Made by a program: the position numbers and the translations under genes. The notes under the pieces are model-generated. The model was not told the DNA's origin, made no database searches, and saw only the letters and a program-made list of their open reading frames with translations. Positions 56,237 through 63,373 of a stretch of 64,000 nucleotides of DNA are shown here, one piece after another. Each line of letters starts with the position of its first letter. Positions within the stretch are counted from its first letter, which is position 1. Source of the DNA: an uncultured Oscillospiraceae bacterium (lineage in GTDB: Bacteria > Bacillota > Clostridia > Oscillospirales > Oscillospiraceae); the NCBI GenBank assembly GCA_949841355.1, contig CATKZP010000016.1, positions 1 through 64,000 of the forward strand, given 5' to 3'.

Positions 56237-56507
56237 GTTTAAAACTCCTTTCCAAATTCCGCCTATGGAAGGCGCGGGGCCCAGCCGGCTCCTCATTTCT
56301 TATAGTATACCAGCTTTTCTCCCGCCGTGGAAGAGGAAAAGTGAGGCGCGGCGCGATTTTTGTTGTTGCAATGCCGGAAGGTTTCTGATATACTATACTG
56401 CGTTCCATGCCGGGACGGGGCGTCCCGGCCCCGCCGCCCCACAAAAACAAACCGCGCCGGGGCATATTCCCCGGCTTTGACCATCTAAAGATAAAGGACG
56501 GATGACA

Positions 56508-57275
56508 ATGTTCGAGAAAGGAAAGCGCGCACGCCGCCAAAATGAGGAAGATAAGGTTTTTAACCGCATGCTCCTCTGGCTCGCGGCTGCGGTCGTGCTG
56601 GAGCTGCTGCTGTTTCTTCTGCAAAAGGCGTATGTGGATCTCGCCTTTGCCCCCATCATCGCCAAGGGGCTGCTGGAGTTTTTTAAGATCTTTACCATCG
56701 CCGGGCTGGTGATCGCCGCCGGCTGCGCCGTCTGGGCGGTGCTCTTTGCCCGCGGCGGAAAGCCTATTCTGCTGCCCGCCGCCATCGCCGCGGCCAGCGC
56801 GGCGCTCTGGGTGGTGTCCGTGGTGTGCCGCTTCGCCTACCCCGACGGCGTGCGCATCCTGATGATGTTCCCGGCGGGCGGCGCGGTGCTCATCATCATC
56901 TTCTTCCTCTACCAGCGCCCCTTCTTCTACAACGCCGCGCTCACCTGCGGCGGACTGCTGGCCCTCTGGCTCCACCGGCAGTACTATATGAACCATCCCC
57001 GGCTCATCACCGCCTGCATCGTGGGCGGCGTGGTGGTGCTGGCCCTGGCCGCCGCCCTGGCCTTCCAGCTGCGCAAGACCGACGGCAAGCTGGGCTCCCT
57101 GCGGGTGCTCCCCCCCGAGTCCAACTATTTCATGACCTGGCTCACCTGCGCCGTCACCGCGGCGGTGATGGTGCTGGCCCTGGTGCTGGGTATCTCCGCC
57201 AGCCAGTATCTGCTGTACGTGCTGGCGGGCTGGCTGTTCGCCCAGGCGGTCTACTTCACGGTGAAAATGATGTGA
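56508..57275 (+). CDS. Hypothetical multi-pass membrane protein
   Basis: ORF MFEKGKRARRQNEEDKVFNRMLLWLAAAVVLELLLFLL…. Confidence 0.75.
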   Translation: MFEKGKRARRQNEEDKVFNRMLLWLAAAVVLELLLFLLQKAYVDLAFAPIIAKGLLEFFKIFTIAGLVIAAGCAVWAVLFARGGKPILLPAAIAAASAALWVVSVVCRFAYPDGVRILMMFPAGGAVLIIIFFLYQRPFFYNAALTCGGLLALWLHRQYYMNHPRLITACIVGGVVVLALAAALAFQLRKTDGKLGSLRVLPPESNYFMTWLTCAVTAAVMVLALVLGISASQYLLYVLAGWLFAQAVYFTVKMM

Positions 57276-57435
57276 GAAGCTGTACTAATAGCCGAAGTAT
57301 TCAGATTTGCGAGCCCAAATTGCCGGTGGCAAGGCGAAGAATCGCGGGAATACTTTGTGTATTTCAAGATTTTTCAACGCAGCCAGCGGCAATTTGGGCC
57401 GTAAAGCTGGGTGCTGAGGCGATTGGTACAGCTTC
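57276..57435. repeat. Palindromic intergenic element copy 1 (~160 bp)
   Basis: GAAGCTGTAC…GTACAGCTTC outer arms; core AAGGC-stem-GCGGGAATACTTTGTGTATTTCAA-stem'-AACG. Confidence 0.8.
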
Positions 57436-57447
57436 TGAGCAACACAG

Positions 57448-63093: not shown

Positions 63094-63124
63094 GCGCCGC
63101 CCCCGCCGGAGGCGGGGAACGGCT

Positions 63125-63286
63125 GGGCGCTGTTTGAAAATTGACGACGTGCCCAGCGGCGAGGGATTTTTTCGCCAGACAAGGCGATTTGACGCGGAAA
63201 TACTTTGTGTATTTCAAGTCAAATCAACGACATATGGCGGAAAAAGACCTGTCGTTTGGGCATGTTGGCAATTTTCAAACGAGCCC
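63125..63286. repeat. Palindromic intergenic element copy 2 (~162 bp)
   Basis: GGGCGCTGTTTGAAAATTG…CAATTTTCAAACGAGCCC; core AAGGC-stem-GCGGAAATACTTTGTGTATTTCAA-stem'-AACG. Confidence 0.8.
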
Positions 63287-63322
63287 TAAGTGCGGAACCT
63301 GTCCGCCCTTGCCTGCAAATAA

Positions 63323-63353
63323 CCGGCATTCCCCCGCCTCCGGCGGGGGAATG
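63323..63353 (+). repeat. Intercistronic hairpin GGCATTCCCCCGCC-tcc-GGCGGGGGAATGCC
   Basis: Perfect arms, directly before the permease gene. Confidence 0.7.
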
Positions 63354-63373
63354 CCATAGAAAGAGGGAACCCC

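Follow-up and report, generated by a model that had tools for sequence, protein, structure and literature searches.

The two palindromes in the window, that is, the entire stretch of 64,000 nucleotides of DNA analyzed here, are judged from their sequence to be non-autonomous DNA transposons (MITEs) with every MITE feature tested here, and probably belong to a long-lived MITE superfamily that combines a structured core with borrowed IS5-type ends, the fold serving the element and not the operon in which one of the copies resides. The usual view of MITEs is that they are decayed insertion sequences (IS) and that their interiors are inert. If an interior is conserved between Bacillota and Myxococcota under changing ends, then some MITEs would be long-lived lineages that have their own function, and folded nucleic acid would be part of their biology. 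The conservation of the fold across phyla under changing ends suggests that its importance is for the element itself and not for the adjacent transporter genes. The combination of fixed internal loops with variable stems provides a testable handle on the persistence of non-autonomous elements, and the covariance model can be used to annotate genomes for the element. The features in the window are as follows.

63126 to 63286, plus strand: MITE copy 2 (family A), 161 bp, one long hairpin, supported by sister copies with 91-97% identity and the same ends and by the z-score of the fold.
63126 to 63143, plus strand: left terminal inverted repeat (TIR) of copy 2, GGCGCTGTTTGAAAATTG, preceded by TG, where the sister copies have TA; this end matches the IS5-family element L172.
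63269 to 63286, minus strand: right TIR of copy 2, GGGCTCGTTTGAAAATTG, followed by TA at 63287-63288, the only side of this copy with TA; based on the sequence and the sister copies.
63150 to 63262, plus strand: inner structured module of copy 2, 113 positions, scoring 103.9 bits with covariance model R1 and 96.8 bits with R2.
63181 to 63231, plus strand: most conserved core of copy 2, consisting of CAAGGC, a variable stem, GCGGAAATAC-TTTGT-GTATTTCAA, a variable stem and AACG.
57276 to 57435, plus strand: MITE copy 1 (family B), 160 bp, with TIRs GAAGCTGTACTAAT / GAAGCTGTACCAAT and the same inner module at 57300-57412.
57273 to 57275, no strand: left target-site duplication (TSD) of copy 1, TGA, which is the stop codon of the ORF 56502-57275.
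57436 to 57438, no strand: right TSD of copy 1, TGA.

Read directly from the window, both palindromes agree letter for letter with those quoted in the initial annotation, and their 8-nt stems pair as it claimed (GATTTGAC/GTCAAATC, and GAAGAATC/GATTTTTC with one G-U). The 19-mer shared by the copies, AATACTTTGTGTATTTCAA, occurs twice in the window and not once in 100 shuffles. The segment 63125-63286 folds into a single long hairpin of -88.5 kcal/mol (z = -11.3), a value equalled by none of 200 shuffles, and copy 1 yields -97.5 kcal/mol (z = -14.7). The hairpin of copy 2 extends beyond the core of about 50 nt to cover the entire element. The two copies differ in both TIRs and TSD and have in common only the inner module of about 113 nt; these other terminal repeats and the other TSD rule out that copy 1 is a diverged copy of the repeat represented by copy 2.

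The assignment to MITEs derives from the TIRs, the TSDs, the near-identical dispersed copies and the IS5-family insertion sequences with matching ends in relatives. The host genome (G000; 2.76 Mb in 44 contigs) holds about 16 copies of the element, with 17 matches, fragments included, in a covariance-model search. Among these are five complete or almost complete sisters of copy 2 with 91-97% identity, along with fragments; the family A sisters all end in terminal repeats of the GGCGCTGTTTGAAAATTG / GGGCTCGTTTGAAAATTG type, and most are bordered by TA or CTAG, as are copies of other families. Family B ends in GAAGCTGTACCAATCG and is flanked by 3-base TNA duplications (TTA, TAA, TGA, TCA). The elements are non-coding and 160-166 bp in size, and an automatic score detects TIRs in 134 of 173. 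Family B insertions often coincide exactly with a TAA or TGA stop codon, and its duplication as the target site leaves the upstream gene intact (window 57273-57438; loci L032 and L035).

On the element strand, the fold follows the plan C-AA-G-GC-[G-stem-C]-GCA-G-n-ATAC-loop-GTAT-n-C-AA-[G-stem-C]-AA-C-GCA-G, embedded within longer arms. As read from the alignment, an asymmetric internal loop, CAAG opposite CGCAG (C-AA-G / C-GCA-G), is present twice in opposite orientations. The stems vary freely, the loop residues are mostly fixed, and the internal loops keep the same letters in both phyla. Among the 43 inner modules of the Bacillota set, two-sided changes occur in 32 of the 36 pairs, with 375 two-sided cells compared to 127 in shuffles, and 90.6% of the cells pair, compared to 65% in shuffles and 34-52% in slid controls. 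Under a tree-based null that keeps the tree and the per-column substitution count (our own R-scape-like script, E < 0.05), 11 of the 36 structure pairs, and no other pair, are significant in this set; in an independent set of 44 Myxococcota modules, significance is reached by 17 of 28 pairs and by only two others, both of which extend the same helix. The two-sided stem change that the initial annotation interpreted as covariation is, therefore, real, and the element displays covariation beyond phylogeny, as expected of a structured RNA.

The hairpin also has a polarity. G-U pairs outnumber A-C by 126 to 31 in Bacillota and by 97 to 11 in Myxococcota (17 columns to 1); a mere double-stranded palindrome would give equal numbers of G-T and A-C, so one strand is favoured, implying a fold of RNA or single-stranded DNA. 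The excess is found in the TIRs as well (114:41), hence the whole hairpin is concerned and not the core alone. In 97% of 180 modules, the fold of the element strand is more stable than that of its complement, the mean difference being 10.9 kcal/mol, and the complement of the copy 2 hairpin reaches only -62.6 kcal/mol. As the TIRs share the G-U excess, a strand-biased mutation process could also be its source, a point against our reading.

A search for DDE_Tnp_1 in relatives revealed insertion sequences of 0.8-0.9 kb with ends like those of the MITEs (L171, L172, L178 and L180). The 849-bp L172, from a congener, ends in TAGGGCTTGTTTGAAAAA, and L171 in TAGGCCTTGTTTGAAAAA; the 873-bp L180 ends in AGAGCCTGTTTAAAATCTT, which is also the end of MITE L131, and L178 in AGAACCCGTATTCACAAGTG, as does MITE L049. 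With matches to DUF4096, DDE_Tnp_1 and NF033580, the proteins of L172 and L180 belong to the IS5 family. Within the host genome, no intact IS with the exact ends of family A or B was found. The likeness between the MITEs and the IS elements is confined to the terminal 20 bp or so, and the interior is, therefore, not a leftover of these IS elements. The initial annotation had named, as the explanation that would undo its structural reading, exact TIRs of a transposon with a known transposase; this explanation holds for the outer 20 bp or so, which are IS5-type TIRs, but does not extend to the core.

The ends have been replaced while the structured interior persisted, as shown by comparison of the 134 elements with TIRs, which form about 41 TIR clusters, and by 61 pairs of elements in which the cores are at least 78% identical and the TIRs differ. 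In one genome (G125), for example, cores with about 88-95% identity are bounded by GGGTAACGCCGAACAA, GAAGCTCTGAGTAAAT, AGGCAACACCGCACAA or AGGAAACCTTGAATAA.

In the scenario that we favour, each copy is a non-autonomous transposon, of which the terminal repeats of about 18-20 bp are, judging from the matching ends, most likely recognised in trans by an IS5-family DDE transposase that would then insert the element at TA/CTAG or TNA targets. The interior module persists while its ends are swapped for those of whichever IS5-type element is available. As the statistics of structure and strand preference suggest, selection would act on the module as a folded single strand with a fixed polarity, made of RNA or possibly of single-stranded DNA and forming a long hairpin in which two opposed asymmetric internal loops are joined by freely varying stems. 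The fold would serve the spread or tolerance of the element itself, for example, by binding a widespread host factor. The mobility signature, the IS5-type ends, the covariation, the fixed loops, the strand preference and the exchange of ends are established from sequence and statistics, and all support this scenario, which on the whole we consider likely. We more tentatively entertain, at somewhat less than even odds, a class of selfish elements with a persistent structured RNA or single-stranded DNA core that is spread over at least two phyla, repeatedly acquires IS5-type ends and has a fold to which a conserved factor, of the host or of transposition, would bind.

Copy 2 lies between the SBP_bac_5 and BPD_transp_1 genes, and this position, together with the great stability of the hairpin, speaks for the earlier proposal of a cis-acting RNA, an attenuator or mRNA stabiliser, that tunes the SBP:permease stoichiometry. 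The comparison with related operons makes this proposal highly improbable. The genus is represented by 41 genomes, 36 of which, that of the host among them, carry the SBP gene; the element is missing at all 19 other congeneric SBP loci that were retrieved, 18 of which have a readable SBP-permease junction that keeps a GC-rich hairpin of its own; the nineteenth lacks a readable junction and has no model match either. A search of 84.8 kb of related operon DNA with R1 found only the known copy. This polymorphism points to a lineage-specific insertion in the operon of the window. The sister copies adjoin unrelated genes in both orientations, and the insertions show no strand bias relative to the flanking genes (35/31 and 29/33, from simple ORF calls with many cases undecided), which also counts against our own reading, given that read-through RNA from the neighbours might have produced such a bias. 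Inside the element, there is no sigma-70 consensus promoter and no intrinsic terminator; the hairpin lacks a terminator tail, and the sole terminator-like match is the native GC-rich hairpin. An effect on the ABC operon is possible as a side effect and not as the purpose of the element. In the window, a GC-rich hairpin stands on either side of the MITE (63100-63118 and 63325-63355), and several relatives carry a tandem duplication of the final SBP codons together with the GC-rich hairpin, as in L235 (junction loci L232, L234, L235, L238 and L246).

The more serious contender, although in our estimate still unlikely, is that these are ordinary MITEs with interiors shared by descent only, so that the two-sided changes result from quasipalindrome correction and not from selection on the fold. 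All the MITE features are compatible with this explanation, and in L043, a family A copy (G000:C8:93111-93129), the internal loop has been replaced by the perfect palindrome GCGGAAATAC-TTTGT-GTATTTCCGC, a clear case of such correction. Because of this case, arm-to-arm template switching is a candidate route for the joint change of both ends, for which correction would also account, and part of the two-sided changes could stem from it, a point against our reading as well. Correction, however, should erase mismatched internal loops, which retain the same letters in two phyla, and it is blind to the strand, yet G-U far exceeds A-C. Y1 (HUH) transposases typically act on imperfect hairpins that have strand polarity and conserved unpaired bases, and the polarity of the element fits a REPIN- or IS200/IS605-like element that such an enzyme would move as a single-stranded hairpin. 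We give this possibility very little weight: the TA/CTAG/TNA duplications and the TIRs that match IS5-family DDE elements speak against it, and the replication-strand bias expected for IS200-like movement of single-stranded DNA is absent, with 12 of 24 in a rough count made by hand from the match coordinates in two single-contig genomes (G751 and G1046), the origin being assumed at the contig start.

The module is dispersed far beyond the host genome. With up to 2 mismatches allowed, 51 of the 151 genomes in the host's family contain the core pattern, and a reversed control gives close to no matches; each genome has its own TIR types, and the length of the element stays near 160 bp. Model R1, built from 43 inner modules of the host bacterial family only, recovers the module at full length in further Bacillota families as well as at Myxococcota loci. 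The latter were first spotted by a DNA pattern, the 8 matches of which are an undercount because its right stem was set to 8 nt as opposed to the usual 7. The broader model R2 detects the element in 70 of 292 genomes of the class and in 95 of 284 genomes, about one third, in the phylum to which the Myxococcota locus belongs. Many of these genomes have at least 10 copies, and the per-genome counts are lower bounds. By these sequence matches, the module spans two phyla, Bacillota (Firmicutes) and Myxococcota; we do not claim three because the genome of the "Deltaproteobacteria" locus L223 has a phylum list that largely coincides with that of Myxococcota. At the gathering cut-off, no Rfam family matches either the window or any of 10 loci taken from Myxococcota and other families, and a permissive search gives only weak, sub-threshold miRNA-like matches. 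No account of the element family was found in a search of open-licence PMC papers, and some of these MITE families may already bear names in other literature.

Among the known systems, the element resembles IS5-family-derived MITEs in being short and non-coding, with IS5-matching TIRs, TA/CTAG or TNA duplications and many dispersed copies, but differs from them in that the likeness to IS ends at about 20 bp and the structured interior is common to some 40 unrelated TIR types in two phyla. The bcr1 element has a TTTAT target-site duplication, whereas the duplications here are TA, CTAG or TNA. In the Bacillus cereus group, bcr1-3 are MITE-like and often transcribed, and bcr10 and bcr18 have conserved secondary structures (PMC3446304); bcr1-bcr18 are described as specific to one species group, unlike the element here, and are set apart on the basis of this description. 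The Chunjie MITE of Geobacter uraniireducens has 38 copies with TIRs and direct repeats, one of them inside an operon (PMC10969869), and, compared by description only, is 178-235 bp in size versus 160-166 bp here. The Correia/NEMIS elements of Neisseria are MITE hairpins that become part of mRNA, where RNase III cleaves them, with other sizes and ends than the element here and no conserved core under changing ends described (PMC10969869). REPINs and RAYT-associated REPs are small, imperfect, non-autonomous palindromes (PMC3116915). REPINs have GTAG-type tags and a Y1 transposase and lack a target-site duplication, in contrast to the DDE-type TIRs and target-site duplications of the element here; these duplications and the IS5-type ends speak against membership in REPIN/RAYT.

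A plasmid collection contains no match to the element, and the sole match in a phage collection is an unannotated gut phage record (MT835573.1:678-768) with 74% identity to part of copy 2. At one locus (L068, G092:C85), unlike all others, the core is repeated in tandem every 112 bp or so, and no TIRs are obvious. Another genome (G136, loci L143-L154) has many copies that either lack half of the hairpin or show deletions close to the loop, which looks like erosion of the palindrome.
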